A stretch of 64,000 nt of DNA from Craspedostauros australis (Eukaryota > Bacillariophyta > Bacillariophyceae > Mastogloiales > Achnanthaceae): contig JAMXDE010000037.1 in the NCBI GenBank assembly GCA_026770025.1, positions 310,001-374,000 of the forward strand, in the 5' to 3' direction. Position 1 is the stretch's first letter. Each line of letters begins with the position of its first letter. Shown one piece after another: positions 9,884 through 35,155 of the stretch. The notes under the pieces were generated by a model that worked only from the letters and a program-made list of their open reading frames with translations, did no database searches and was not told the origin of the DNA. The position numbers and the translations under genes are program-made.

Positions 9884-10955
9884 CCGTTTCTTGTTGTCAC
9901 TGTCGTCGCAGTTGTTACGGCTGATGCCGATTGTTGCTGATTATTGTTGATTGTGGCACAATCGTATGAGTAGAGCTGGCAGAGCAGGCAGAGTATGTAG
10001 AGTAGGTATGTGGTCCCAAATCAGTTGCGCTTGGATGGCGATTATGAGCTCATTTGCTCAAGTTTGCTGTCCTCCATTTCATGATCCTGTGCATTGATCA
10101 CGAAGCAACGTGTCGTCAGTCAACACACCTTCATGGACTTGCGTAATTCCACCACGGTATCCGGTGTGGTATGGTGTGGCATGGTGTGGCGTGATACAAC
10201 CGTGGACAGCCACATCATGATCCGAAGCTGGCCAGCTCGCTCGCTCGCTCGCACGATACGACCTTCGATGGTGCCCAACTTGTCCACGCTGTGCAGTTGT
10301 GCCTCTTCATGTGATACCATCGGTCGTGTAATATGAATAGACACATCCCTCTGTGATGGTCTTGGGGGAGTCAACCAGTATGCCATACGAATGCATACTA
10401 TGTACTTCAGCGGTTGGATGTCATTGAACGACCGTAATGGGCGGATCCACGATGTGACGAATCCTCCGCGATGTTTTCTTCGGTGGACATCAGAGGCGTT
10501 TCCCGCGTTTTGTCGAGAACATGACGATGGCGATGATGAGCATGACTCCATTCGTGTTTCAATCGACAACAAACGTATCCAGGACTCATCTCGCCTCACC
10601 CAATCATTGCGAACTCTGTGACGACGGTGATGGCCATGGTGGTGTTGCAGACACCGCTGCAGAATACTGACACAGATCGTCACAACCGCAACGCTCACAT
10701 GATGATCACTGTCACCATCAAGTGTCTATTCACAGAGCATGCCAATGCTCCGTCTCTCCCTCTCTGTTTCCGGAGAGAGACTTCGAACAATGCCGGCAGG
10801 TTGACTTGGTTCCTCACTGATTGATCGCCCAACCACAGAGGCAGCCACAATCAGAAGAATCACAACATTAGCAACAATGACAAACATGACACCAATGACG
10901 TGGTTGATGCATCATTGATGCATCAAAAGAGGAGGATTGGTGCCATCTGCATTGC

Positions 10956-11808
10956 GTGCATGGTGGTGGCAACGACCTCACTGTCATCACCATCCCTGCC
11001 ATCCTCACTCCACCACAGAAGCGAAGCAGCAGTAGCAGAAGCAATGAGAGTGAGAATGAGAATCACCAACCAATACGGAAGAATGCCGTGATTGGTGGTG
11101 GCATCGCCGGTCTCTCCTTGGCGCATGCCTTCGAGAACATCAGCAACAACGACAACAGCGTCGCTTGGAAGGCATCATCCGAGGCCGAGCACATCCAGCA
11201 ACAGATGCGACAGCAGATCAACCATGTCAAGATCCACATCCACACCATCAGGCCCATCATCGATCGACTCATCGACAGCGTCATTCGTTTCTTCGAGTTG
11301 GGGATCTACTTCCACAAACCCTTTGCGAGATGGACCAAGGTGATGGTGGTCACGAACGGCAATCGCAACTGAAATCGCAATCGCGACTGCAACTACACTG
11401 GAAGCACTTGCAAAGACGTAGATGCGGATAAAGCCGCCATCCTGACTGTCTGTGGTGATGCGGCGCACGCCATGCCACAGTTCCTGGGACATGGCGTCAA
11501 TCAGGCCATCCAAGACGTCTACTGTCTGGCCAACGCCATTCAGCAGCATACCATGCAGTACAATGGACAAGCCAATGGTGGGAACAGCCTCGAAGACATC
11601 CTGCAGATAGAATACAAGGACAAGCGATGGTCCACCACCACGAGCATCATGACCATCACGGCCACCATGGCCAAGGCTGGTCTGCTGGGATACCTGGAGG
11701 CCTCATCGGGACCGTTGGCCAAGTTTCGGGATGCGTGTCCTTCTTCACCATGGACAAGATGGGGTTGCGAAGAAGATCTTTCTGGATGCTGCCGTTCCGA
11801 GGATATGA
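10956..11808 (+). pseudogene. FAD-dependent monooxygenase remnant, unit 2
   Basis: The best-preserved leader: the frame from ATG 10956 runs through HQPIRKNAVIGGGIAGLSLA (about 11060-11120) into SVAWKASSEAEHIQQQMRQQ. It has the same internal deletion as units 1 and 4, and ends at the same in-frame stop after NGNRN (11372) as unit 1. Beyond the stop, VCGDAAHAMPQFLGHGVNQA marks the second FAD motif (about 11450-11510). A one-base loss in the MDKMG(V)AKK segment near 11760 shifts the tail relative to unit 1. Units 1 and 2 share more changes with each other than with unit 4. This is a broken gene, not a functional enzyme. Confidence 0.85.
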
Positions 11809-12117
11809 GAATGTGTGGAGCGGTGTGAAATTGCGATGTAAAACCGTGATGTGGTGCAGATAGGTTCTGTGGACGGTTTTTGCTTGGTGTTGATGGACCA
11901 GCCATACTGGTACGATCAAGACATTCCATACTTCTCACCAACCACAACACGCAACCACAATCATATTCGCAATCAATCAACCAACCATCTCCCTTTTCCA
12001 TCCTACTCGAACAACAACACACTCACATGCACCAGAGTATCAATACTGTCTTCATTCGCTGTTCAAATTAATTTACAACCAGAGTACTCCAAGGCAATGC
12101 AGGATCGCATGAACCAT

Positions 12118-13518
12118 CTATGTGCTTTTCTTTTCCACATCGTAAGCAGAAGCATCATCAACTCGGACGAGCCGATCCGCTCTGTTGTCATCCCACGCCT
12201 GTTTCAACATCTCACTGCCCTGCAGCAGAATGTCAAAAGTCTCGCTCGTGGGATCCATTGCGCCCATTAGATCCATTGTACCCACTACATCCATTGTACC
12301 CCCACGTTTGTTTGTTCTCATCAGTATCTCCCCAAACAAGGCCAGTGGCCGCGACCATGTTGAAAGGGAACCCAGCACTGCTCTCACCTTGTTGCGATGA
12401 TTTCGCCGCAAGATACGTTCAACAAGCGCATCGTACCAATGGACATGTTCGTCAGTCGGGCGTCGATCCACGTCGAGATAGGTGAGTTGGGTAGTCTGCT
12501 CCAAGGCTTGCTGAAGTGCTCCCATTTGTGTCGAGGAGATCTGGGGCGGAACCCCATACATGTCGAAAACATTAACGGCAGAGTATGTGAGAGATGACAA
12601 GCTCTTGTTCCCCAGAAGCGATATCAAAATGTCGACCCATGTATCTTGTTCTTGTCGCGATAACACGTTCCAAATACCAGAAACATCGAGACTCTTCAGG
12701 TGCGATGCATCTGAAAGGAGTTGCATGATCTGGTTGATTTCTTGTGGTTGGATGTGTTGGGCCCTGTGGACCTGACAGAAATACATGTGGAACTTGTTGA
12801 TGCGCTTGTTTGACTGGAATAGCTTTGCCAAGCTATCACAAGTGATACGGGTGCTTACAATGGATACTTCGGTGACGCTGCAATTGTTTGGAGATAGCCA
12901 TCTGCACAAATCAGCGCCCCCATTGGCGAGCTCACAGGAACTAAACTTAACCCACTTCGAGTTTTGGGAGATGTTGAACATGAGCTTGTCGCAATCAACA
13001 AGATCACATGAAGCCAAATGCACACGGTGTGTCACAAGAGGGATATCGTGGAGCTGCTTCATCTCCACGAAGTCTTGAGCCAAGCGGATGAATTGGTCGG
13101 ATGAAGATTCAAATGGGTGTTTGGCAGCCAATCGAAGTACGAATCGAATCGCTTGCTTGTCTTCTTCTCCGAATTGGTCATTCCTGCCGAAGTCCAGAGT
13201 CAGGGATCCAATACTCATCCGCCCGTAGCCGGAGCCAGGACAACCGCTCAGCAGAACATGAGGTGATAAAGCAACGTACTCGTTCAGCCCTTTCACCATA
13301 AATTCCAAGTCAGCGAAGGTGAATCCTGCTTCGATGGCCATGTCCCAGTGTTCCATCCGCTTGGGTGTGACACTGAAGCAGCCGCACTGCTCTGCTCGTG
13401 GGTACCACGGAGTGAACACGATCTTCGCAACCCACCCTTTTTTATGGAGTTGTTTCCAGAAAGTCTTGAAGTCTGGATCATGATCGCTGTTGGTATTGGT
13501 GTTGGCGACATCATCCAT
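12118..13518 (-). CDS. LRR-type array protein, copy 2
   Basis: An intact frame of 466 residues starting MDDVANTNTNSDHDPDFKTF, the Met aligned with copy 1's second Met. It has the same two blocks: the VTPKRMEHWDMAIEAGFTF region, then the LRR solenoid (CDKLMFNISQNSKWV, NGGADLCRWLSPNNCSVTEV, SLAKLFQSNKRINKFHM). The basic/aromatic cap is NKVRAVLGSLSTWSRPLALF. Before the end a short TM/D/V/G repeat (GTMDVVGTMDLMGAMDP, at about 12260-12305) is expanded by tandem copying of a 15-bp-like unit; the other copies have a single MDP or MGS. The tail ends VDDASAYDVEKKST. No motif suggests catalysis. Confidence 0.8.
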   Translation of the reverse strand: MDDVANTNTNSDHDPDFKTFWKQLHKKGWVAKIVFTPWYPRAEQCGCFSVTPKRMEHWDMAIEAGFTFADLEFMVKGLNEYVALSPHVLLSGCPGSGYGRMSIGSLTLDFGRNDQFGEEDKQAIRFVLRLAAKHPFESSSDQFIRLAQDFVEMKQLHDIPLVTHRVHLASCDLVDCDKLMFNISQNSKWVKFSSCELANGGADLCRWLSPNNCSVTEVSIVSTRITCDSLAKLFQSNKRINKFHMYFCQVHRAQHIQPQEINQIMQLLSDASHLKSLDVSGIWNVLSRQEQDTWVDILISLLGNKSLSSLTYSAVNVFDMYGVPPQISSTQMGALQQALEQTTQLTYLDVDRRPTDEHVHWYDALVERILRRNHRNKVRAVLGSLSTWSRPLALFGEILMRTNKRGGTMDVVGTMDLMGAMDPTSETFDILLQGSEMLKQAWDDNRADRLVRVDDASAYDVEKKST

Positions 13519-13845
13519 GTTGCGCTTTATACTTTTCTTGTCGTTGCTGTCGTCACTGTTGTTGCTGCTGCTGTTGATTGCTGCTGTTGACGGTTCAATC
13601 TTACAGGTAGAGCAGGTAGAGCACGCAGTCTCAAATCAGTTGCGCTTGGATGGCCATTATGAGCTCATCTGCTCAAGTTTGCTGTCCTCCATTACATGAT
13701 CCTGTACATTCATCACGAAGCAACGTGTCGTCGGTGGACACGCCTGCATGGACTTGCGCAGTTCCACTACTGTGTATGGTGTGGTTCGGTGCGGTATGAT
13801 ACGACCGTGGACAGCTACATCATGATCCGAAGCTGGCTAGCTCGC

Positions 13846-13917
13846 TCACACGATACGACCTTCGATGGTGCCCAACTTGGCCACGCTGTGCAGTTGCGCC
13901 TCTTCATGTGATACCAT
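13846..13917 (-). other. Small ORF (23 codons) recurring upstream of the LRR genes
   Basis: In the noncoding block about 0.33 kb upstream of each LRR start, on the LRR strand, an ATG opens a frame reading MVSHEEAQLHSV...EGRIV. It ends in TGA in three of four copies. In the first block (near 10317-10240) TGA is CGA and the frame runs on. Copies differ by replacements (A to D, L to S, H to R, T to I), which does not look like strong protein constraint. It may be an upstream ORF in the LRR leader, a 5' exon fragment or chance. Confidence 0.3.
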
Positions 13918-14649
13918 AGTTCGTGTAACATGATTACGTCCCTCTGTGATGGTCTTGGGGGAGCCAACCACGATACTATTATCTTATACTCCGATCGATA
14001 CAGTTCTTCGGCAGTTGGATGTCATCGAACGACTCCGATGGGCAGATCCACGATGTGGAGAATCCACCCACGATGACTTCTTTGGTGAACATCGGAGGCG
14101 TTTCTCGTGTTTTGTCGACAGGATGACGATGGTGACACCACTCGTGTTTCAATTCACAACAAACGTATCCAGGACTCATCTCGCCTCACTCAATCATTGC
14201 GAACTCTGTCGCGATGACGATGGCCATGGTGGTGCTGCAGACATCGCTGCAGAATACTGATACAGATCATCACAACCGCAACACTCACTGATGATCACCG
14301 TTGCCATCAAGCGTCTATCCACAGAGTACGATACCAATACTCTCTCTCTCGTTTCTCTCTGTTTCTGGAGAGAGACTTCGAACACTGCCGGCTGGTTGAC
14401 TTGGTTCCTCACTCATTGATCGCCCAACCACAGAGACAGCCACAATCAGAAGAATCACAGCAATGGCGGCATTGGCAACAATGACACCAACGACGTGATT
14501 GATGCATCAAAAGAAGATGATTGGTGTCATCTACATTGCGTGCATGGTGCATGGTGGTGGCAACGAACTCACTGCCATCCCCGTCGTCCCCGTCATCCTC
14601 GCTCCAACGCAGAAGTGAAGCAGCAGCAGCAATGGGAGTGGGAATGAGA

Positions 14650-16200
14650 ATCACCAACCAATACGGAAGATCGCAGTCATCGGTGGCGGCATCGCCGGTC
14701 TCTCCTTGGCGCATGCCTTCGACAACAACAACGGCAACGATGCACACAACATTCATGTGACATGCTTCGATGTGACATGCTTCGACGTGACATGCTCCGA
14801 TGCGAGACCAGAATTGGACGTCGTCGCAGGTGCGGGTGTGCAGCTCAACAGCGGCATGGCAGTGCTGAAGCAGATCTATCCGTCCTTGCAACGTGCGGTG
14901 GCCGATGCCGCGCTGCCGTTGACGATCGTGCGGTCCAAGACCACCAGCTGGATCTCATCCAACAAGGAGTTCCAACTGCTGCACTTCAATCTCAGACAGA
15001 TGATCATGGATGCGGAGCGACACCACGACGAAAGCGCTGATCCAGGAGGAAGGCGAGGTCATGGCGTACCGTCCTCCGTCATGTGGGGAGACTTGCAGGA
15101 GGCGCTGCAGGAAAATCCGTTGGAGGAGCTCGAAGTGACACCCATGCATCTCAACAAGCATGTGGTGGATGTTGAATGTCAAAAGACGGAGGAGCGAGAT
15201 GTCATCCATCTCGCGTTTGAAGATGGAACGAGGGATGGGTCGTACTGGTACGATATGGTGGAGGGCTGGAATGGTGCCAACAACGTCATCGAGCAGTACA
15301 TCAACGGCGATGAGCGGTCGCCATCAGACAACCAACGCAATTCGCCAGCTGTGTACTCTGGAATCCGCATCCGGTACGCCATCCAGGATGTCGCCAAAGA
15401 GGACAGCGATAGTAGCAACAGTGGCAGTAGCGACAACGGAACGAACAAAACTGCACAAGATTCCGTCCTGCAGCAACACTTTGGCAACGGCGCTCACTGC
15501 CTCACTGACAACTGCGGTAATGGTATCAAGCGCGGCACCACCCGATGCTGCTTCAACATCTTCCGCAACGCCTTGCCCTTCTCCAAGCCCGCCGTCAGCA
15601 AGGATGACGAGAACGCCGCTTGGAAGGCATCATCCAAGGCTGAGCGCATCCAGCAACAGATGCGACAGCAGATTGATGATGTCAAGATCCCCACACGCAC
15701 CACAAGGCCCATCATCGATCGACTCATCGACAAGGCCGATCGATTCTTCGAGTTGGGGATCTACTACCACAAACCCTTTGCGCGATGGACCAAGGCGATG
15801 GTGGCCACCAACGGCACCCGCAACCGCAATCGCAATGGAAGCACCGGCGCAGACAAGGCCGCCGTCCTGACTGTCTGCGGTGATGCGGCGCACGTCCATG
15901 CCACCGTTCCTTGGACAGGGCACCAATCAGGTCATCCAAGACGCCTGCTGTCTGACCAACGCCATTCGGCAATACCATATGCAGTGCGATGAACAAGGCA
16001 ATGGCGGGAACAGCCTCGAAGATATTCTGCAGACAGAATACAAGGGCAAGCGATGGTCCACCATCACGGACATCATGGGCATCATGGGCATCACGGCCAA
16101 GGCTGATTGGTCTGCTGGGATACCTGGAGGCCTCATCGGGACCATTGGCCAAGTTCTGGGATGTGTCCTTCTTCATCGTGATGTGGCGCAGATAGGTTCC
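14650..16200 (+). pseudogene. FAD-dependent monooxygenase remnant, unit 3 (longest copy)
   Basis: The only copy that keeps the middle of the enzyme. KIAVIGGGIAGLSLAHAF starts near 14668. Then come DARPELDVVAGAGVQLNSGM (a typical segment after the first strand-helix-strand), MWGDLQEALQENP and LAFEDGTRDGSYWYDMV. The second FAD motif, VCGDAAH, is near 15880. The frame is open from about 14670 to 15992, but it is decayed. The conserved GADG of the family reads EGWNGAN. The catalytic-domain segment before HFGNGAHC is poorly kept. A frameshift just after GDAAH (about 15893) ruins the PPFLGQGTNQ segment, which continues in another frame. The 3' part lacks the C-terminal MDKMGVAKK sequence of the other units. 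The leader carries the same TGA as unit 1. Confidence 0.85.
14756..14800 (+). repeat. Three tandem 15-bp copies inside the monooxygenase
   Basis: Three consecutive copies of TGTGACATGCTTCGA (the third with two changes) encode VTCFD repeated three times just after the first FAD strand. Flavoproteins of this type have one such strand (VTVFEARP-like), so this is a small local expansion, found only in unit 3. Confidence 0.85.
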
Positions 16201-16482
16201 GTGGACGCTTTCGTTTGCTGTTGATAGACATTCCATACTTCTCACCAGCCACAACACGCAATCACAATCACCCAGCCATCTCCCTTGTTCCATCATACTC
16301 GTCACAACACACTCACATGCACCAGAGTATCAATACTATCTTCATTAGACGTCCTAATTACTCCACGAGCAGAGTATTCCAAATCTATGTCGGATCGCAT
16401 CAACCATCTATGTGCCTTTCTTTTCCACACCGCAAGCAGAAGCATCATCAACTTGGACGAGCGGACCCGCTCTCTTGTCATC

Positions 16483-17772
16483 TCATGTCCGCTTCAACGT
16501 CTCACTGCCCTGCAACAGAAGATGGAAAGTCTCATTCGTGGAACCCATTGGACCCCAACGCCGGCTTCTTGACATCAGCATCTTTCCAAACAGGGCCAGT
16601 GGCCGTGACCATGTTGGAAGGGAACACAGTACTGCTCTCACCTTGTTGCTATGATTTCGCCGCAAGATACGTTCAACAAGCGCATCGTACCAATGGACAT
16701 GTTCATCAGGCGGACGTGGATAAATGCGGAAATAGGTGAGTTGGGTATTCTGCTCCAAGGCTTGCTCAAGTGCTTCCATTTGTGCTGAGAGGATCTCAGG
16801 CGGAACTTCAAACGTGCCGGGATCCTCATAGTGACGGTATTCGAGAGATGACAAGGTCTTGTTTCCCAGGAGCGATATCAATGCGTCGAACATTGCATCC
16901 TGATCTGGCTCCGATATCCCAACGCAAACACCGGAAACCGTGAGCTTCTTCAGGTGTGATGCATCTGAAAGGAGTCTGATGATCTGATCGATTTCTTGTC
17001 GCGAGTAGATGTCTTGGGCGCCGTAGTCCCCATAGAAAGTGATGTTGAACTTGTTGATGCGCTTGTTTGACTGGAATAGCTTTGCCAAGCTATCGCAACT
17101 GATCCGGGTGTCTAAAAAAGATACTTCGGTGATGCTGCAATTGTTTGGAGACAGCCATCTGCACAAATCAGCTCCCCCATTGGCGAGCTTACATTCTCGA
17201 AACTCAACCCATTTCGAGTTTTGTGAGATGTTGAACATGAGCTTGTCGCAACCAACAAGATCACATGACCACAAATACACACAACGTGTCGCAAAAGGAA
17301 TATCGTGGAGCTGCTTCATCTTCACGAAGTGTCGAGCCAAGCTGATGCCTTCGTCGAATGGAGATTCGGGTGGGTGTTCGGCAGCCAATCGAAGTACGAA
17401 GCGAATCACTTGCTTGTCTTCTTCTCCGCATTGGTCATCGCAGCCGAATTCCAGATACAGGGATCGAATACACATCTGCCAACAGACCCTGTAACATCTA
17501 TCGCTCAGTAGAACATGAGGTGATACAGCAACGTGCTTGTGCCGCTTCACCATCGATTCCAAGTCAGCGAAGGTGAATCCTGCTTCGATGGCCATGTCCC
17601 AGTGTTCCATCCGCTTGGGTGTGACACTGTAGCAGCCGATATATTGTCTTGGATAACTCTGCACATTGAACACGGTCTTTCGTGGCAGCTCTTTTCCATG
17701 GAGTTTGTTCCAGAAAGTCTTGAAGTCCTGATCATGGTCACTGTTGGCGACAGCATCCATGTTGAAAGCCAT
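16483..17772 (-). CDS. LRR-type array protein, copy 3 (short tail)
   Basis: An intact frame of 429 residues starting MAFNMDAVANSDHDQDF, with the array architecture: VTPKRMEHWDMAIEAGFTF, CDKLMFNISQNSKWVEF, NGGADLCRWLSPNNCSITEV, SLAKLFQSNKRINKFNI, then cap NKVRAVLCSLPTWSRPLALF. It stops early: the codon matching the Trp of the QAWDD segment in copies 2 and 4 is TGA. Conserved sequence (DDKRAGPLVQVDDASA...) continues in frame after it. About 23 residues of acidic tail are therefore lost while the solenoid stays complete. Whether the shorter protein is functional cannot be judged from sequence. Confidence 0.78.
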   Translation of the reverse strand: MAFNMDAVANSDHDQDFKTFWNKLHGKELPRKTVFNVQSYPRQYIGCYSVTPKRMEHWDMAIEAGFTFADLESMVKRHKHVAVSPHVLLSDRCYRVCWQMCIRSLYLEFGCDDQCGEEDKQVIRFVLRLAAEHPPESPFDEGISLARHFVKMKQLHDIPFATRCVYLWSCDLVGCDKLMFNISQNSKWVEFRECKLANGGADLCRWLSPNNCSITEVSFLDTRISCDSLAKLFQSNKRINKFNITFYGDYGAQDIYSRQEIDQIIRLLSDASHLKKLTVSGVCVGISEPDQDAMFDALISLLGNKTLSSLEYRHYEDPGTFEVPPEILSAQMEALEQALEQNTQLTYFRIYPRPPDEHVHWYDALVERILRRNHSNKVRAVLCSLPTWSRPLALFGKMLMSRSRRWGPMGSTNETFHLLLQGSETLKRT

Positions 17773-18869
17773 CTTGCTACGTGTTGTCGATGCTGTTTAT
17801 GGTGGGGGCTGTCGATAGTGTTGGTTGCACAGCAGCAGAGCAGGCAGAGCACGCAGTCTTAAATCAGTTGCGCTTGGATGGCCATTATGAGCTCATCTGC
17901 TCAAGTTTGCTGTCATCCATTTCATGATCCTGTACATTGATCACGAAGCAACGTGTCGTCAACCAACACGCCTGCATGGACTTACGCAGTTCCACCATGG
18001 CATGGTACGACCGTGGATAGCCACATCATGTTCCGAAGCAGGCTAGCTCGCTCGCTCTCTCACACGATACGACCTTCGATGGTGCCAGACTTGGCCACGC
18101 TGTGCAGTTGTGCCTCTTCATGTGATACCATTGTTTGTGTCACGTGAGTAGGTACATCCCTCTGTGATGGACTTGGGGGAGTCGACCACGATACTATTAT
18201 CTTATACTCCGATCGATACAGTTCTTCGGCAATTGGATGTGTTGGAACGAATGCAATGAGCAGATCCACAATGTGACGAATCCACCACGACGACTTCTTC
18301 GGTGAACATCGGAGGCATTTCTCGTGTTTTGTCAACAGGATGACGATGGTGACACCACTCGTGTTTCAATTCACAACAAACGTATCCAGGACTCATCTCG
18401 CCTCACCAATCATTGCGAACTCTGTCGCGATGACGATGGCCATGGTGGTGCTTCTGCAGACACCGCCACAGAATACTGATACAGATCGTCACAACTGTCA
18501 TGCTCAACGATGATCACCGTTGCCATCAAGTATCTATCCACAGAGTACGATACCAATACTCTCTCTCTCGCTTCTCTCTGTTTCTGGAGAGAAACTTCGA
18601 ACACTGCCGGCTGGTTGACTTGGTTCCTCGCTCAATGATCGCCCAGCCACAGAGACAGCCACAATCAGAAGAATCACAGCAATGGCAGCATTGGCATCGT
18701 TGATGCATCAAAAGAGGATGGTTGGTGCCATCTGCATCGCGTGCATGGTGGTGGCAACGAACTCACTGCCATCCCCGTCGTCCCCGCCATCCTCGCTCCA
18801 ACGCAGCAGCAGAAGTCGCAGTAGCAGAAGCAACGGGAATGAGAATCACTAACCAATACGGAAGATTGC

Positions 18870-19573
18870 CGTGATCGACGGTGGCATCGCCGGTGTCTTC
18901 TTGGCGCATGGTTTCGAGAACAACAGCAATACCGACAACATCGACAACAACGTCGCTTGGAAGGCATCATCCGAGGCCAAACGCATCCAGCAACAGATGC
19001 GACAGCAGATCGATGGTGCCAAGATCCGCACGCACATCACAAGGCCCATCATCGATCGACTCATCCACAATGCCGATCGATTCTTCGAGTTGGGGATCTA
19101 CCTCCACAAACCCTTTGCGCGATGGACCAAGGTGATGGTGGTCACCAACAGAAATCGCAACCGCAACCGCAATGGAAGCACCAGCGAAGACAAGCTCGCC
19201 GTCCTGATTGTCTGCAGTGATGCGGCGCACGCCATGCCACCGTTCCTTGGACAGGGCACCAAAGAGGCCATCCAAGACGCCTACTGTCTGGCCAACGCCA
19301 TTCAGCAGCATACCATGCAGTACAATGGACAAGCCAATGGTGGGAACAGCCTTGAAGACATCCTGCAGATAGAATACAAGGGCAAGCGATGGTCCACCAT
19401 CACGGACATCATGGGCATCATGGGCATCACGGCCAAGGCTGATTGGTCTGCTGGGATACCTGTAGGCCTCATCGGGACTGTTGGCCAAGTTCCGGGATGC
19501 TTCCTTCTTCGTCATGGACAAGATGGGCGTTGCGAAGAAGATCTTTCTGGATGCTGCCGTTCCGAGGATATGA
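18870..19573 (+). pseudogene. FAD-dependent monooxygenase remnant, unit 4
   Basis: The longest uninterrupted remnant among the deleted copies: one frame from about 18871 through GGIAGVFLAHGFENNS, SVAWKASSEAKRIQQQ-like sequence and KLAVLIVCSDAAHAMPPF to TKEAIQDAYCLANAI. The first Gly of GGGIAG is Asp, and the GD of the second FAD motif is SD. The middle of the enzyme is deleted at the same place as in units 1 and 2. Near 19440 a short insertion changes frame (GLLGYLEASSGPLAKF elsewhere reads ADWSAGIPVGLIGTVGQ here). The ancestral C-terminus, MDKMGVAKKIFLDAAVPRI then stop, is still readable at about 19513-19573 in another frame. An active flavoenzyme is very unlikely. Confidence 0.82.
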
Positions 19574-19838
19574 GAATGTGTGGAGCAGTGCGAAATCGCG
19601 GTGTGTTGCAGATAGGTTCTGTGGACGGCTTTCGCTTGTTGTTGATGGACTAGCCACACTTGTACGATCCAAACATTCTATACTTCTCACCAACCACAAC
19701 ACGCAGACATAATCATAATCACAAGTGAACACCTCCCAATCAATCAATCAATCAACCAACCATCTCCCTTTTCCATCCTACTTGCACAACAACACACTCA
19801 CATGCACCAGAGTATCAATACTGTCTTCATGAGCTGTT

Positions 19839-21266
19839 CTAATTACTCGACGAACAGAGTACTCCAAGGCTATCCAGGATCGCATCAATCATCGATGTGC
19901 CTGTCTTTTCCACATCGCAAGCAGAAGCATCATCAACTCGGACGAGCTGATCCGCTCTCTTGTCATCCCACGCCTGTTTCAACATGTCACTACCCTGCAG
20001 CAGAAGATGGAAAGTCTCGCTCATGGGATCCATTGTACCCCTACGTCTGCTTGTTCTCGTCAGCATCTCCCCAAACAGGGCCTGTGGCCTCGACCATGTT
20101 GGAAGGGAACCCAGCACTGCTCTCACCGTGTTGCAATGATTTCGCCGGAAGATACGTTGAACAAGCGCATCGTACCATTGGGCATGTTCGTCAGGCGGAT
20201 GTGGAGAAATATCGAGATCGGTGAGTTGGGTAGTCTGCTCCAAGGCTTGCTGAAGTGCTTCCATTTGTACCGAGAGAGCCTCAGGCGGAACTTCAAACAT
20301 GGCAGGAGCACTAACGGTAGAGTATCTGAGAAATGACAAGCTCTTGTTTCCCAGCAGCGATATCAATCCGTCGAACATTTTCATCTGCTCTTGTCGCGAT
20401 GACCTGTACCAAACACCGAAAATCCTGAGCTTCTTCAGGTGTGATGCATCTGAAAGGAGTCTGATGATCTGATCGATTTCTTGTGAGTAGATGTGTTGGG
20501 CGCTGTGGACCAAATAGAAATTGATGTTGAGCTTGTTGATGTGCTTGTTTGACTGGAATAGCTTTGCCAAGCTATCACAAGTGACACGGGTGCAGAAAAA
20601 GGATACTTGGGTGACGCTGCAATTGTTTGGAGACAGCCATCTGCACAAATCAGCGCCCCCATTGGCGAGCTTGCAGTCATTTAACACAACCCATTTCGAG
20701 TTTTGAGAGATGTTGAACATGAGCTTGTCGCAATCAACAAGATCACATGAATCCAAATTCACACAATGTGTCACAAGAGGGATATCGTGGAGCTGCTTCA
20801 TCTCCACGAAGCATTGAGGCAAGTGGATGCGTTGCTTGAATGAAGATTTGGGTGGATGTTCGGCAGCCAATCGAAGTACGAATCGAATCGCTTGCTTATC
20901 TTCTTCTTCGAATTGGTCAATGGTGCCAAATTCCAGATACAGGGATCGAATGCGCATCCGCCTGGAACCCTGGAGAAACGAAGCGCTCAGTAGAACGCGA
21001 GGTGATAAAGCAACGTGCTTGTGCCGCTCCACCATCGATTCCAAGTCAGCGAAGGTGAATCCTGCTTCGATGGCCATGTCCCAGTGTTCCATCCGCTTGG
21101 GTGTGACACTGTAGCAGTAGATCTGCTCTACTTGTGGGCACTGCACATTGAACACGGTCTTCAGGATCCACCACTTCCGATGAAGTTGTTTCCAGAAAGT
21201 CTTGAAGTCTGGATCATGATCGCTGTTGGTATTGGTGTTGTCGATGGAATCCATGTTGAAAGCCAT
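19839..21266 (-). CDS. LRR-type array protein, copy 4 (longest regular tail)
   Basis: An intact frame of 475 residues starting MAFNMDSIDNTNTNSDHDPD. Same order as its sisters: VTPKRMEHWDMAIEAGFTF, SLYLEFGTIDQFEEEDKQAI, LVTHCVNLDSCDLVDCDKLM, NGGADLCRWLSPNNCSVTQV, SLAKLFQSNKHINKLNI, cap NTVRAVLGSLPTWSRPQALF. The tail contains VRVDDASACDVEKTGT, then 18 further residues (SMIDAILDSLGVLCSSSN). It shares RMRIRSLYLEFGTI with copy 1 and the MAFNM start with copy 3, a mosaic pattern compatible with gene conversion. A protein-interaction role is inferred from the solenoid; the partner is unknown. Confidence 0.8.
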   Translation of the reverse strand: MAFNMDSIDNTNTNSDHDPDFKTFWKQLHRKWWILKTVFNVQCPQVEQIYCYSVTPKRMEHWDMAIEAGFTFADLESMVERHKHVALSPRVLLSASFLQGSRRMRIRSLYLEFGTIDQFEEEDKQAIRFVLRLAAEHPPKSSFKQRIHLPQCFVEMKQLHDIPLVTHCVNLDSCDLVDCDKLMFNISQNSKWVVLNDCKLANGGADLCRWLSPNNCSVTQVSFFCTRVTCDSLAKLFQSNKHINKLNINFYLVHSAQHIYSQEIDQIIRLLSDASHLKKLRIFGVWYRSSRQEQMKMFDGLISLLGNKSLSFLRYSTVSAPAMFEVPPEALSVQMEALQQALEQTTQLTDLDISPHPPDEHAQWYDALVQRIFRRNHCNTVRAVLGSLPTWSRPQALFGEMLTRTSRRRGTMDPMSETFHLLLQGSDMLKQAWDDKRADQLVRVDDASACDVEKTGTSMIDAILDSLGVLCSSSN

Positions 21267-22287
21267 CTTGCTTTGTGTTGTCGATGCTGTATATGGTGGG
21301 GGCTGTCGATAGTGTTGGTTGTAGAGCAGGTAGAGTATGTAGCCTCAAATCAGTTGCGCTTGGATGGCGATTATGAGCTCATCTGCTCAAGCTTGCTGTC
21401 TTCCATTACATGATCCTGTGCATTGATCACGAAGCAACGTGTCGTCAGTCAATACGCCTTCATGGACTTGCGCAGTTCCACCACGGTGTATGGTGTGGTG
21501 TGATATGACCGTGGATAGTCACATCATGATCCGAGGCTGGCTAGCTCGCTCTCTCACACGATACGACCTTCGATGATGCCCAACTTGGCCACGCTGCGGA
21601 GTTGTGCCTCTTCATGTGATACCATAGTTTGTAATATGAGTACATCCCTCTGTGATGGTCTTGGGGGAGTCAACCACGATACTACACATACTCCGATCGA
21701 CACAGTTCTTCCACGGTTGAATGTCATCGAACGAATGCAATGGGCAGATCCACGATGTGAGAAATCCACGATGCGAAGAATCCTCCACGATGATTTCTTC
21801 CGTGGAAATCAGAGGCGGTTCTCACGTTTCGTCGAGAGGATGGTGACGATGACGACAATGATGACACCACTCGTGTTTCAATTCACAACAAAACGTATCC
21901 AGGACTCATCTCGCCTCACCAATCATTGCGAACTCTGTGGCGAATGAATCAACCATCAGTCTTTTGATCAACACGGAGCGTGCGTGAGAGGGATTCGTTC
22001 TGTGGTGACGACGACGATGGCCATGGTGGTGGTGCTGCTGCAGACATCGCTGCAGAATACTGATACAGATCGTCACAACTGTCAAAGTGCACAAGTAACT
22101 ACTGTAGACGTATTGGCCCGTTGTTGTGTGCCCTGGTCGGAGCTCTTGTTCTTTTATTGTGAGTTGTCCGAAGACAATCCCCCGACCAGTATTTTGGACT
22201 AATATGATTAGTAAAGAGGTAAGAAGGTACAGAGAAAGTTGTCAACAACTGCAGCGCTCACATGATGATCACCATTGCCATCAAGTA
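21267..22287. repeat. Partial fifth array unit (noncoding block only)
   Basis: Homologous to the blocks upstream of the other LRR genes (9884-10940, 13519-14640, 17773-18850). Homology ends abruptly after ACCATTGCCATCAAGT (about 22271-22286). The other copies continue there with an ATCTATCCACAGAG-like sequence and a monooxygenase. The block separates two divergent genes in the full units, so it should hold their promoters. A solo-LTR-like insertion interrupts it. Confidence 0.8.
22080..22244. mobile_element. Solo-LTR-like insertion (165 bp) with 5-bp target duplication
   Basis: The segment begins TGTCAAAG and ends AAGTTGTCA, with the TG...CA ends of LTRs. It is flanked by ACAAC on both sides (22075-22079 and 22245-22249). 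The other array units give the empty site: CGTCACAAC is directly followed by CGCAACGCTCAC near 10680. No internal retroelement sequence adjoins it, so it is best read as a solo LTR of a short-LTR element, Ty1/copia-like by size and duplication length. Family assignment is tentative. It is young relative to the array because only this unit carries it. Confidence 0.7.
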
Positions 22288-29138: not shown

Positions 29139-29313
29139 ATATGAGCCCGATCAGTGAGTCGACCTGCACTTTGCAATCATCAGTACAACCTTTTTTCCTC
29201 AGATTTCCAAACTAAGCCCATATTCATAATCCTCGTAGATCTAAAACATATACTGATCCATTTCAGTTCTGAGGATGGTCGTATTTTAAGTTTTATGGAC
29301 CGATGGATGTGTG
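29139..29313 (+). repeat. Left inverted terminal repeat
   Basis: Pairs with 34984-35155 on the other strand. Nearly identical blocks are GAGTCGACCTGCACTTTGCA, CATATTCATAATCCTC and TTTTAAGTTTTATGGACCGA, separated by diverged spacers. Confidence 0.85.
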
Positions 29314-30957
29314 CATTATTCGATCTCTTTCGGGTTTCGGCCTGTTGGCTACGACTACATCGATCCAATTTAACCCTTTGCTGTTCTTTGTTTCAGCAAG
29401 GTTGTTCCCATTTTGAATTGTTTAGTCTCTTTTTGAGGTGTGCTGATGAGACGATCCAACAGTCCGTCCACGATAACACTAGTTGTAGAGATTTGGGAGA
29501 AGCGGCGGGTGCGCGTTTTCATTCATTCCATCATGGGCTTGTCCAATCCGTCATCGACGTCACCAAACTAGCGGCTGCGTCATGAACCACCAATCACAGC
29601 ACGATGTGAAACATCGTCATCTGTGTTTCGTTGTTACGGGATGGTTGAGTGGGGTTGGTACTCTCGAAGTGTTTTGTGTCGTGCTTTCCTCGCGCATTTG
29701 GTACAATTATTGGTAACCGCCGCAACCCCCAGTATGTGCAACTGGTTGAGAGTGCCAAACACGACACAACGGCATGACAATGGTGTTGCGAAACAAAAAA
29801 CCTCCACAATGGCCATCCAACGGCATCCACCGCGCCGCACCGAGCAGCGGGCCATTCCAAAATCCAAGCGCATCACTATCTCCGCCATGCAACCCTTGGT
29901 GGGTGGGCGAGAGGGGGTTGCGATAGCGGTTGATTTGGGGCCGCGGCAGGTCCCCGCGCAAACGTCATGTGTTGACGCCAAATGGGCTCGTTGGATGTGG
30001 CATGTGTATTCCATACACAGTCCATACCAGCGCCCATGGAGGGGCAAGGCGCATCCACAAGGGCAGGACCAAGGCTCCCACGAAGTTTGAGGCTCGGGGA
30101 CGACCAGGAAGGTGTCCGCACGGAGGCAAACGTGGAGGGAAAAAGTTTTGGCGGTGGATCGTGGGGGTACACATCATGTGGCTTTGGCTGTGAGGGGCAC
30201 CATCACCAAGCCGCCCATACAAGATGTGTCAGAAATTGGCCGAATGTGGGCGTGGCGAAGTACGACATGCTGAAGTTGTCTGGAAGAGGCCACAGCCAAG
30301 AATATGTGGTGAATGGTCGTTGTTGGCGGGCGCATGAGAATGTGCCATGGCATCACCATACAGAGGTGTGCCGTCAGTGGCATGCATGCTCAGCCCATTC
30401 TGGATGCATCAGCATGTTGCCAGGGAGTGTGGGAACGCACGAGGGGCATGTGGAGGGGATGAAAGGGTTGTATGGATGAGATATGGACCCTCATCCACAC
30501 CACATCCGGATTGCGAATGGGTTTTTGAAATTGCTCGTTTTCAGTGCAGAGAAACTTTGGGGTGTGCAATGCAGGTATCTGGGGCAATGCTTCATGGATT
30601 GGATAGCTGGGGGGTATGCAGAGCGAATGATATGCTCAGTTTGATGAAATACAAGGATGATGATGATGATCATGTGTGTTCATTGGAGGGCAACATTGTG
30701 GCATCAACAATTTTTTCGAATCGACCACACAAAACACAGCAAACCAACATGACTTCCAAAATATTTTCAATACTCATTTAACTTCGATATTCTGATTAAA
30801 CTATAGCCAGGCGTCTGAGCGCAATGTTTAGATTTAATTTTAAGCGTTTTGTTGTTGAGATATGGCATGACAAGCAGTTATTGGATGTGCTTTTTGGATG
30901 GCCTCTAGACTCGATTTCGTAGCATGGTCTGCCACCCACAAAACTCCACAACTAGTG
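29314..30957. other. Left interior of the transposon, no clear gene
   Basis: Frames are short and overlapping. One plus frame near 30060-30180 contains a basic GRPGRCPHGGKRGGK stretch, but nothing around it supports a gene. The region is adjacent to the 3' end of the transposase gene and may hold its polyadenylation signal (AT-rich at 30770-30850). Confidence 0.45.
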
Positions 30958-33900
30958 TTATCGCTGCAGTACATGCCCATCACAATTTTCCGTCTCATCA
31001 TCCAACACAGCCTCACTTTCTGTGTTGGCCTTCAGTGTGTCAGCATCACACCACATCTGATTCTCAAGTTCCTCTTCTGCTCTCTGCAACTCCTCCTCTC
31101 TTCGTTCCTCCTGTGTTTCAGCTGGCGCATCGTGGGTCTCCACGATTGCAGATGCTGTTGGGTTGGTGTTGGTGTTGGTTTCTGCCTTGATGAGGGCAGC
31201 CTGCTTCTTTTCTTTGCGTTGTTTGGCGTTGTACGCCGCCGACAGCGAAGCTTTCACGCGCATGGGATTTGCGTGCAGTTGTACGTACCAGTCAGTTTTG
31301 GCTTTTTCACTGTCCATCAATTGCTCGTGTGCTTCGTGTTCGGACGGTCTGTTTTTTGGGTCCTTCGCGGACGCTTCACTGATGCCCTTCAATTTGTCCG
31401 CGATGTAGTCTGGTAGTTCTGCTGGTTTGCGCGTTGTTTTGCTCGCCCAGCCTGGCACTGCAAGTGGTGGATGTTCTGTTTCTGCGGTCTGGTCTTGTAG
31501 CGCTGTGGTGTGATCGGATGGTAGATGTTGTTGTCCGTCTGCGATGGCTTTGCCGAACGCCAGCGCCTTGCTCTCTGCTGCTGTGCGCCCGAGTTTTCGT
31601 GTCTTGTCCGTCTTCCTGAACGATTCGGACGCTATCGGCAGCTTGTCGGACGTGATTGTTCTGTCCTCGATGACGCCCAACTCGTTGATGATCCACCCTT
31701 TCCATTCAGCGCTCTTGACCACAACGTCTTCCGTGATACCAGATGCAGCCACCAACCGTGCCTGGTCATCATCATACTTCACCTCGTGAGTTTGACGTAC
31801 CTGTTGTCCAGACGCTCGGAATCGTCTTTTTGGTGCGCCTGGAAGCGTGGTGATGTTGCCTGGGAGGAACGACGCGTTAACAAGCACCGTTGTTGTCCCT
31901 GCGATGCTACCGGCTTTCAGTGCTTCGTAGAGTTGGCGGGCGGTCTTGATGTCGCGTCCACTTTGCACGTATTTTCGCAGTACACGAGTGATGTACGCGA
32001 AGTGGGTGTCCAGCATGCTCTTACCGGTTTGGGCCTCCGTGTAGATCCACGCGATGATTTTAGCTGCTTTTCGTGTTGCAAGGTTCTTGTTGAGTACCGA
32101 TGTGATGAGCGCGATGTGCTCGTGACTGGCGAAGCAACACGCATTATCGCTCTGTAGGATGATTTCAGTCACGGATGGGTGAATGTCTTTGACCTTTTTT
32201 TGCACTATCTCCAGCAGTCCACCAACTTGAAGTGTGTCTTGTGTCGGTCTTCCGCCGACCACAATGTCGATGAACCGATAAGTAAAAATGTCATTGCGAC
32301 ACGTGATGACCATCGCCCCAAGCAGTGACATTCCCTTTTTCCCCCAATATTCTTGTTGGGCTTCGCTTTGGCCTGTTGGTAGAATTTTTTGCTTATGGTC
32401 GAGTACCACATGGGCTCTTTCAGGCTTTTCGTTGAGCTGGGATTGATAAAAAGCGATTTGTCCGAATTGAACTTTGGCACGCACTTTGTGAGCCATGTAA
32501 TTAATGATTTCATCAGCGAATCCCGGCGCTGCCACAAGCATTGATTGCAATTCGTCCTTGTGTTCTGCGAGTTCGTTGTCCTTAAGCATTTCGACGAATG
32601 GGACAAAACGATCATTCATAAATCGCATTGCTGCGCCACAACGGTTGCATACTTTACGCGGTTGTTCGTTTGTTGTGACCACAGGAATGTCATTTGTGAT
32701 GATTGGAATGTTGTTTGTGATGGTGGTGTTCTTCTTGCGCTTGTGCTTGTTGGTGCGTGGCTTGCGTTGATTGGTTGATGTGGTTGTTGCCTTCTTCTTC
32801 TCCTTTCCTGTGATGAGTGCGAACGCAGCCGAATGCATGGGGTCGTCACACTCATGCTGCATGTGCGACGCGGTGAATTCCCATTTGATGAACACAACAA
32901 GCAGTTCGAGCGCATGCGAGAGGGACTCTGCTGTGCGCACATGTGGTGAGATGACGTCATCTGGCTCATTGTTGTCATGGTGGGTCTTGTCATTGGCATC
33001 GTTTTTCTCCTCGCCCCCCACTTCATACTTAGCCTTCAGCAGGTCGACTAGGCGCGAAATTGCCTGTTTCAGTTTCTCGGTGGCCATCCAGAAATAGCTC
33101 TCAAAGGAAGAAAGCCCTGTCTTGATCTTGCTTTTGCATGTGAGGAGGTTGGTCATTGTAGCGAACGCAGGCCTTCCTACTGGGTTGTTAGTTGTGGACG
33201 AGTACATGCCGAATAATTCTTGGATGGTCGTGCCACCTCGATCGAACACTGGGACATTTTCAAATGCAACTCCACCATACTGTACCGTGTGACTTAACCC
33301 TGCCTTGTATGTTGTTGTTGTCATGAGGAAGGACACCACGCCAGAGAGATTGCAGGCACTCACACGGTACTGAAGAACTCGTAGTGGATTGCTTTCACCG
33401 TGGCTCATCATGTCGTAGTAGCGTCGCAAGGTGTCTGTCTGACTGCGTGTGATCGTGTCGCGTTTGGGAAGCATGCGCGCCTTCTGTTCCTCCGATAGTC
33501 CATGTGCCTGCTTGCCCAAGACAGCAGTACACAGTGTGTGGGGCGTGGACATGGCCAAGGCAGCTCTCACCGTGACAGACGACGTAGTTTCTCCGAGCAA
33601 ACCCAGGGTGTACAGATTGGGCGCCAACATTGCAGGAGGAAGCTCCACGTTCCCGCGCACGTATGCAACCACCTGTTCCATCTGACGAGTTGGCACGTCC
33701 TCCTCTGGGAGCAGGACAGTCCAAAGTGCAGACGATAGGACACTCCACATCTGTTTGATGTTGCTCCAGATGGTCCGATCGTGCCTGCCTGTGAGAACGA
33801 ACCCTTTGTTTGGCATGAGCCGCAACAGTTTTGGATCTAGCTTAGACCCAAGCACCGCCATCACACGAATGATAGCATCACGGCTCCAGCTCTCCTCCTC

Positions 33901-34485
33901 TGGATCATGCATGAACTTCCCACCCTTCCTGCCCCTGCCGGTGCGTGTCTGTTCCTCCTTTTCGTCAACATACGTGCTGTCGCTGTCGTTTGAGGTATCT
34001 GCGTACTCCCCGACAACTACAGTGTCGCAGCGCCGGGGAAGCCTCACTGGTGGAGTTGGCTTGACAGGTGGTGCAATGTCAGCTGCGGCAGGCAGGGGTG
34101 GCGCGTTCACGATAACGCTCACCGAAGTCCCATCGCCGACACCTCGTCCCTCCGAACGCACCTCGACGTGGGAGTCGTCGAAGCCGCCTCCCTTGTCAAG
34201 GATGTGGACGAACACATGCAGCTCGCGAGCATGCGCATGCGTACCGTTCGGGACGAGGATGCCGTCCGCTGCATGCATCGGCTTCACATCGATCACTCGC
34301 GTGATGGTGATCGGCTTCCTCAACGCAGCGGACGGCTTGTCAGGCAACAGTTGCTTGACAGTAGGCAGCAAGTTTCCCTTGGAGTCGGCAGGAGGAGCAG
34401 ATGCAAGGCGAGCAGAACGGGATTTCTTACTGGGGGAGGGGTTAGCATCCTTGGAGAGGGCCTTGGTGGTGGTGGAGAGAGGCAT
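30958..34485 (-). CDS. Large putative DDE-type transposase of the element
   Basis: A frame of 1,175 residues from the Met MPLSTTTKALSKDANP. The frame stays open 116 codons further upstream, but that part encodes a run of Val from a triplet microsatellite and is probably 5' UTR. The first 230 residues are polar. A central part holds a CxxC pair (KVCNRCGAAMRF) as a possible zinc site. The core has an RNase-H-like pattern: VLDHKQKILP (Asp near residue 696), IILQSDNACCFAS (Asp near 780), then YTEAQTGKSMLDTHFAYI (Glu near 817 or Asp near 826). This is followed by a KYVQSGRDIKTARQLYEAL helix. The D...SDxA...GKxxxD order matches a family of predicted transposases I recall from animals and protists, not from a search. 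The C-terminus is charged and coiled-coil-like. It presumably moves the element by binding its inverted ends. Confidence 0.65.
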   Translation of the reverse strand: MPLSTTTKALSKDANPSPSKKSRSARLASAPPADSKGNLLPTVKQLLPDKPSAALRKPITITRVIDVKPMHAADGILVPNGTHAHARELHVFVHILDKGGGFDDSHVEVRSEGRGVGDGTSVSVIVNAPPLPAAADIAPPVKPTPPVRLPRRCDTVVVGEYADTSNDSDSTYVDEKEEQTRTGRGRKGGKFMHDPEEESWSRDAIIRVMAVLGSKLDPKLLRLMPNKGFVLTGRHDRTIWSNIKQMWSVLSSALWTVLLPEEDVPTRQMEQVVAYVRGNVELPPAMLAPNLYTLGLLGETTSSVTVRAALAMSTPHTLCTAVLGKQAHGLSEEQKARMLPKRDTITRSQTDTLRRYYDMMSHGESNPLRVLQYRVSACNLSGVVSFLMTTTTYKAGLSHTVQYGGVAFENVPVFDRGGTTIQELFGMYSSTTNNPVGRPAFATMTNLLTCKSKIKTGLSSFESYFWMATEKLKQAISRLVDLLKAKYEVGGEEKNDANDKTHHDNNEPDDVISPHVRTAESLSHALELLVVFIKWEFTASHMQHECDDPMHSAAFALITGKEKKKATTTSTNQRKPRTNKHKRKKNTTITNNIPIITNDIPVVTTNEQPRKVCNRCGAAMRFMNDRFVPFVEMLKDNELAEHKDELQSMLVAAPGFADEIINYMAHKVRAKVQFGQIAFYQSQLNEKPERAHVVLDHKQKILPTGQSEAQQEYWGKKGMSLLGAMVITCRNDIFTYRFIDIVVGGRPTQDTLQVGGLLEIVQKKVKDIHPSVTEIILQSDNACCFASHEHIALITSVLNKNLATRKAAKIIAWIYTEAQTGKSMLDTHFAYITRVLRKYVQSGRDIKTARQLYEALKAGSIAGTTTVLVNASFLPGNITTLPGAPKRRFRASGQQVRQTHEVKYDDDQARLVAASGITEDVVVKSAEWKGWIINELGVIEDRTITSDKLPIASESFRKTDKTRKLGRTAAESKALAFGKAIADGQQHLPSDHTTALQDQTAETEHPPLAVPGWASKTTRKPAELPDYIADKLKGISEASAKDPKNRPSEHEAHEQLMDSEKAKTDWYVQLHANPMRVKASLSAAYNAKQRKEKKQAALIKAETNTNTNPTASAIVETHDAPAETQEERREEELQRAEEELENQMWCDADTLKANTESEAVLDDETENCDGHVLQR

Positions 34486-34618
34486 GGTGGAGTTGTTGGT
34501 GGAGAGTAGTGCTGTTTGCTCGTTGGATGTGATGAACTGCAGAGGTTGAGACGAAGTGAGGAAGGAGAGCATACGATGAAAGGCCAACCACCTGGTGACA
34601 ACAACAACAACAACAGCA

Positions 34619-34619
<1 letters not shown>

Positions 34620-34653
<34 letters not shown>

Positions 34654-34654
34654 A
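34620..34654. repeat. Triplet (ACT/TAC) microsatellite
   Basis: About eleven tandem triplets, adjoined on the left by an ACA run. It sits upstream of the transposase start and on the minus strand reads as poly-Val, which is why the longest frame there should not be taken as coding. Confidence 0.9.
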
Positions 34655-34983
34655 AGTGTGACGAGAATGGGCATGGAGCGAAAGGGCGCGTGTGCAGGGC
34701 ATTGGCGAGGAAAGTTGTGAATGGAGCCATAGTGTGGCGCGATTTTGCGAAATGATGGAGATGATGTGTTTTGTGTGAGGTGTTTTGTGTAATGTGTTTT
34801 GTGACGAGCAGAATGTGGAATCATGCGCCACATGCTAACGTGTAATTAACGCGTACCAAACGACCGGCACCTTCGGAAGCAAGTCCGTGACTGACCACCT
34901 GACGATAAATACATGAGAACATCATCGAACCTTCGGCAGAAGCTAACGAATTTTGTGATGTTGGATCCACGCGACTAGAATCA

Positions 34984-35155
34984 ACACATGCATCGGTCCA
35001 TAAAACTTAAAATGAACCTAACTACAATCTGCAAGGATTCCATACACATAAAGAGACTAAGAGGATTATGAATATGTACTTAGTTTGTAAATCCCAGGAA
35101 AAAGGTTAGACTGATGATTGCAAAGTGCAGGTCGACTCACTGATCGGGCTCATAT
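34984..35155 (-). repeat. Right inverted terminal repeat
   Basis: Inverted partner of 29139-29313. The outermost 50 bases are almost identical; the interior has more changes, including a different spacer around 35020-35080. Confidence 0.85.

Follow-up and report, generated by a model that had tools for sequence, protein, structure and literature searches.

The stretch of DNA analysed here—the window, 64,000 nucleotides on contig C35 of the assembly of the diatom Craspedostauros australis (74.8 Mb, 90 contigs)—contains an element of 6,009 bp (29143-35151) that carries an inverted repeat at each end, is flanked on both sides by a 4-bp target duplication, ATAT, and contains one large gene on the minus strand. 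An earlier note on this DNA, made from the letters alone, had described a complete DNA transposon with a single large transposase gene, and the ends, the ATAT duplication, and the intact gene of 1,175 codons agree with that description; the span given there (29139..35155) holds for the element, except that the 4-bp duplication was counted in on each side. The element is very probably an autonomous cut-and-paste DNA transposon, whose 1,175-residue protein would be a transposase with a DDD-type RNase-H-like core.

Boundaries of the element and its single gene

The two ends of the window copy were found to pair in a block of 57 nt at 96% identity (29139-29195 with 35099-35155) and in further blocks of 47 and 35 nt, and gapped end-to-end alignment gave 81-82% identity over 177-182 columns, corresponding to terminal inverted repeats (TIRs) of ~175 bp. 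Pairing covers 51 of the 53 outermost nt of the element proper, against at most 24 in 200 mononucleotide shuffles. The inverted ends of ~170 bp with a near-perfect outer ~50 bp reported in the earlier note were thus recovered.

The mechanical minus-strand open reading frame (ORF) measures 1,291 aa from its first ATG. The start kept in 29 of the 30 fetched copies of the element is, however, the Met at 34485, which yields a protein of 1,175 aa, and the valine run upstream of this Met is a trinucleotide microsatellite that reads as a run of TAG stops in two other copies. Because the Met at 34485 is conserved and the upstream run is a microsatellite, the shorter protein was preferred, in line with the ~1,175 codons originally noted. 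No stop was observed after the start point in 25 of the 30 fetched copies—L024, which is without the start region, being among these 25—and one or two stops each were observed in L018, L021, L029, L035, and L036. An alternative stop code, recoding, or deamination was considered for the copies with 19 TAG codons and rejected on reading L035 and L036: 18 of the 19 codons precede the true start, most of these within a (TAG)n microsatellite.

Selection constrains the coding sequence. The ratio of nonsynonymous to synonymous divergence (dN/dS, Nei-Gojobori) was measured to have a median of 0.247 and a maximum of 0.40 across 412 copy pairs with dS of 0.05-1, and the two copies closest to the window copy (dS ~0.03) gave 0.36 and 0.57 against it. 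A second gene in the left 1.5 kb was considered and rejected, with codon-position bias absent and no positionally shared ORF among both near and divergent copies; identity to two divergent copies was 67-83% in windows from 29389 to 30888.

The D...SDxA...GKxxxD arrangement pointed out in the earlier note was located in the protein, as D...SDNA...EAQxGKxxxD, at D696, D780, E817, and D826, all four of which are invariant in 10 aligned copies. D826 is most likely the third catalytic residue and was chosen as such over E817. Furthermore, H541, H551, C613, and C616, kept both in the family of the window element (family A) and in the distant family B described below, suggest a zinc site.

Copies, target duplications, and altered ends

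A protein search of the genome returned 38 match rows, representing 36 copies including that in the window, as two rows are second pieces of copies already counted. The number is a lower bound—36 of 796 candidates scored—and thus at least 35 other copies are present, contradicting the absence of other copies that the earlier note had named as evidence against its proposal. The copies on C3 and C61 were found to be 97.9% identical to the window copy over 6 kb, gaps left out, and in other subfamilies, copies at different sites, each with its own duplication, show 1-2 mismatches in 3,789 bases. Since some copies differ so little, movement has been recent, as had been surmised from the open frame and matching ends.

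In total, 75 distinct ends were collected from the fetched loci with a regular expression modelled on the observed ends, with only one end fetched for most of the 30 fetched copies. The tetranucleotide NTAN was observed to precede 74 of these ends and AGAG the remaining one; TCAG adjoins a further end, L086, lying outside the regular expression. When facing ends were paired, identical NTAN tetranucleotides were present in 22 of 25 pairs, compared with a mean of 4.3 and a maximum of 12 in 2,000 shuffles, which answers the earlier call for a genome search for target duplications. The target duplications are therefore 4 bp long, with a fixed central TA and outer letters that vary among pairs while matching within each pair; TTAA occurs at 5 of the 75 ends. 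Among the three exceptions, a 15.5-kb pair on C15 is probably a mispairing, a nearer facing end being present at C15:1162543, outside the fetched loci. The other two belong to two neighbouring inverted copies at C6:1182200-1196504 whose inner target duplications are swapped, as expected if the intervening DNA had been inverted by recombination. As a separate observation, the full left end at C37:413484-413849 (L004, L091) has a related but truncated left end immediately outside it, the product of nested insertion or of repeated insertion in the same place.

Five end pairs (on C4, C8, C12, C27, and C31) are 12-15 kb apart. Cargo was considered for these long copies and rejected for that on C31 (C31:682274-697312, L079+L080), which is a normal copy with a non-LTR (long terminal repeat) retrotransposon of ~8.9 kb inserted in the transposase gene and AATGGTGGTGAAGGC at both junctions; the RVT_1 match in the insert (E 1.4e-6) is slightly under the curated cut-off. 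The long copies on C4 and C12 showed no insertion at the corresponding site.

At three ends—C12 left, C19 left, and C41 right—the GAGCCC terminus is absent and an inverted copy of the flank is present instead. The resulting palindromes, all of which overlap the target site, have 11-nt arms with a 2-nt loop at C12, 10-nt arms with no loop at C19, and 6-nt arms with a 2-nt loop at C41. Hairpins on the flank are involved in hAT and RAG reactions, and by analogy the palindromes hint at opened flank hairpins as their source. Ordinary break repair with local template switching, in place of hairpins made by the transposase, is an equally probable source, since palindromes occur at only three ends, all without the terminus, and arms of at least 6 nt also occur elsewhere: in the fetched DNA, a background rich in copies of the same element, perfect palindromes with such arms were counted at 190 of 252,782 centres. 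Because arms of this length are less rare, the C41 palindrome could be due to chance. Template switching accounts less readily for the overlap of all three palindromes with the target site, for loops of 0-2 nt, and for the two longer arms, arms of at least 9 nt being rare (19 of the 252,782 centres).

Distant relatives and superfamily placement

Pfam models exist for hAT, Tc1/mariner, MULE, PIF, piggyBac, CACTA, P, Transib, and KDZ. Searches of Pfam with the window protein, 10 close copies, and five families (E up to 10) gave no transposase family and only unrelated matches below cut-off, in agreement with the earlier remark that the protein does not fit the well-known superfamily signatures, and searches of NCBIfam, PHROGs, and PDB sequences yielded only noise below the curated cut-offs. 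The window element has inverted ends, a target duplication, and a single transposase in common with Tc1/mariner, hAT, MULE, PIF/Harbinger, piggyBac, CACTA, P, Transib, and Merlin, and is set apart from them by the lack of a Pfam match and by its 4-bp NTAN duplication. Tc1/mariner differs in its 2-bp TA duplication, compared with the 4 bp observed here, and piggyBac and Kolobok, both of which duplicate TTAA, do not fit the low frequency of TTAA at the ends. No relative was detected in viral, GTDB prokaryote, phage, or plasmid DNA, the viral and GTDB scans having been made with exact short peptides or patterns that could miss distant relatives, and none of 21 translated viral stretches resembles the transposase. 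A search by name of the open-licence literature found no description of the family.

Within the same genome, the pattern E-(A/P)-Q-x-G-K gave 340 matches compared with 292 in a reversed control, a difference that is weak when taken alone. From the first 100 places listed, 11 were fetched, revealing four further kinds of transposase, with six other places unrelated. Identity to the window transposase is 58% for L115/L116 and 35% for L121, and in two stretches 43-53% for L117 and 37-53% for L120. In the five-family alignment, D780 (SDNAxCFAS) and D826 (GKxxxDxHF) are invariant; E817, the Q, and the GK are also invariant, having been demanded by the search pattern, and so do not constitute independent evidence. 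D696 is kept in three of the four families that cover the position, which L120 does not.

Family B, found as L117 and read completely as L126, was examined further. Its transposase, 1,222 aa from the chosen ATG, is 31-32% identical to that of the window over most of its length, and the element, ~13 kb long, has GACCCGC ends and ATAA on both sides in both copies read. The family B end pattern occurs at 56 places in the genome compared with 5 in the control, with 12 facing pairs 12.8-14.4 kb apart. The two elements share the four putative catalytic residues, the NTAN duplication, and similar ends (GACCCGC versus GAGCCCG), whereas family B is twice as long, carries extra ORFs, and has an insertion between the second and third acidic motifs. 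Neither its transposase nor the two extra ORFs tested matched Pfam. At C59:67348-67377, two family B ends adjoin each other in back-to-back orientation and have only the TA in common, as would arise from insertion of one element at the target duplication of another. The features of the window element are collected in Table 1.

Table 1. Features of the window element (window positions) and the ends with flank palindromes.
Feature	Position or locus	Strand	Basis or remark
Left target-site duplication ATAT	29139..29142	.	Identical to 35152-35155
Left terminal inverted repeat, starts GAGCCCGATCAGTGAGTCGACC	29143..29317	+	End alignments
Non-coding 3' part, downstream of gene	29318..30957	.	Identity profile, no codon-position bias
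Transposase gene, 1,175 codons + stop	30958..34485	-	Copy alignment, conserved start, dN/dS
D826, candidate third catalytic residue (GKSMLDTHF)	32008..32010	-	Invariant in five families, outside search pattern
E817 (TEAQTGK)	32035..32037	-	Invariant in five families; required by search pattern
D780, second putative catalytic Asp (QSDNACCFAS)	32146..32148	-	Invariant in five families
D696, first putative catalytic Asp (VLDHKQKILP)	32398..32400	-	N in family L115/L116
H541...H551...C613-x2-C616, likely zinc site N-terminal to putative catalytic core	32638..32865	-	All four kept in family B
5' leader of gene with trinucleotide (GTA)n microsatellite near 34622-34654	34486..34978	-	Sequence and copy comparison
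Right terminal inverted repeat	34979..35151	-	End alignments
Right target-site duplication ATAT	35152..35155	.	NTAN rule across end pairs
Ends without terminus, with flank palindromes	L043/L088, L072/L089, L065/L090		

The transposase may be a poorly sampled relative of the Sola superfamily, or may represent a superfamily that has yet to be described. The leading guess, held at slightly under even chances and ahead of an undescribed superfamily, is a divergent, Sola1-like member, that is, a known kind of element in a poorly sampled host. Sola elements, as outlined in a review, encode a DDD transposase, produce 4-bp duplications, are mostly 2-9 kb long, and have very variable ends with inverted repeats of 11-1124 bp (PMC10741241). 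The 4-bp duplication, identical in most end pairs here, the large size, and the variable inverted ends are shared with Sola (Sola1), with three candidate Asp residues in the present protein; the lengths of the element and its TIRs also fall within the Sola ranges, a feature that is not specific. A study of the diatom Cyclotella cryptica includes Sola in its list of DNA transposons (PMC7466962), giant Sola-1 elements of the brown alga Ectocarpus include one with an accessory gene, resembling the 13-kb family B (PMC12477816), and the Sola1 elements curated in bivalves have a mean length of 5,445 bp (PMC10294476). The likeness lies in described traits, which suit other superfamilies too; the comparison was by description only, and the element is not filed as Sola.

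An undescribed superfamily, characterized by NTAN duplications, GA(G/C)CC ends, and a transposase of ~1,200 aa with DHKQ, SDNAxC, and EAQxGKxxxD motifs, was judged rather unlikely. It is favored by the database and DNA searches described above, which returned neither a transposase match nor a relative, and by the diversity of families within one genome, and is tempered by the scope of those searches, outside which the eukaryote protein databases and Repbase lie. Proteins of cnidarians and fish that carry SDNAGC and QxGKxxxD motifs look similar, which would make this a possibly widespread group that may already bear a name. The fuller proposal of an undescribed superfamily with at least four further lineages in one genome, palindromes pointing to hairpins, and some lineages of 13 kb with extra genes is a shade more doubtful still.

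Membership in a different named superfamily with large elements, such as Academ, Kolobok, or KDZ, is improbable. No Pfam transposase was matched, a result that leaves room for families that Pfam does not model. KDZ and Kolobok produce 8-bp and TTAA duplications, respectively, compared with the 4 bp with only the central TA fixed observed here. Academ carries nuclease or helicase partners, and none was seen in the window element. Academ elements are similar in length, those curated in bivalves averaging 5,565 bp (PMC10294476), and KDZ transposases can exceed 1,300 aa (PMC12477816).

Proposed mechanism and significance

A cut-and-paste rather than a copying mode is proposed, because a transposase of this kind leaves the traces seen here, namely inverted ends with 4-bp duplications, recent multiplication, and a single conserved gene under selection. 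Most likely, the transposase binds the GAGCCC-type inverted ends and cuts by means of a DDD-type RNase-H-like core, with D696, D780, and D826 as the putative catalytic acids. The element would then be joined to NTAN target sites cut with a 4-bp stagger, giving rise to the 4-bp duplication flanking each copy, and the donor flanks may possibly pass through a hairpin, as the palindromes at three ends would suggest.

Several observations weigh against this reading. No empty site for the window copy was found in the assembly, its joined flanks matching only their own two halves. The family L115/L116 (C1:768700-769600, C2:796700-797600) has N in place of D696, with the motif otherwise kept, so that either this family is dead or D696 is not essential; L115 also contains stops. 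The structure prediction suggested in the earlier note, for an RNase-H fold with clustered acids, was carried out as two AlphaFold runs on the window protein alone as a single sequence, yielding a pLDDT (predicted local distance difference test) of 38.7 and 39.1, and the fold was not confirmed. In the second, low-confidence model, D696 and D780 follow strands, D826 stands at the start of a helix, and the order is mostly RNase-H-like, which is weak evidence; its first strand, however, is reduced to a few bridge residues, and a helix takes the place of the expected last strand. A fold search of the PDB gave a best match with E 0.36, with no transposase among the 50 of 358 matches listed. Since the models reach a pLDDT of only ~39 and the fold search was insignificant, the mechanism is claimed from the anatomy of the element, and the RNase-H fold is inferred.

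Elsewhere in the window (8375-21344), a tandem gene array is made up of four ORFs on the minus strand (437-522 aa, 64-73% mutually identical), interspersed with FAD/NAD-binding-like ORFs on the plus strand; no Pfam match was obtained for any of the four arrayed ORFs. The genome as a whole has 61 light-harvesting (PF00504) and 118 HSF DNA-binding (PF00447) matches, a diatom-like content, HSF expansion being linked to diatoms.

Diatoms are major primary producers in the ocean. In two model diatom genomes, DNA transposons account for <1% of the sequence, according to the Cyclotella cryptica study (PMC7466962). A young, intact, multi-copy family with matching ends is a candidate natural transposition tool for diatoms, and the range of families in a single genome supplies sufficient sequence for placing an under-described group of transposases. 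If the palindromes are indeed footprints of hairpins, the cutting chemistry would be directly testable.

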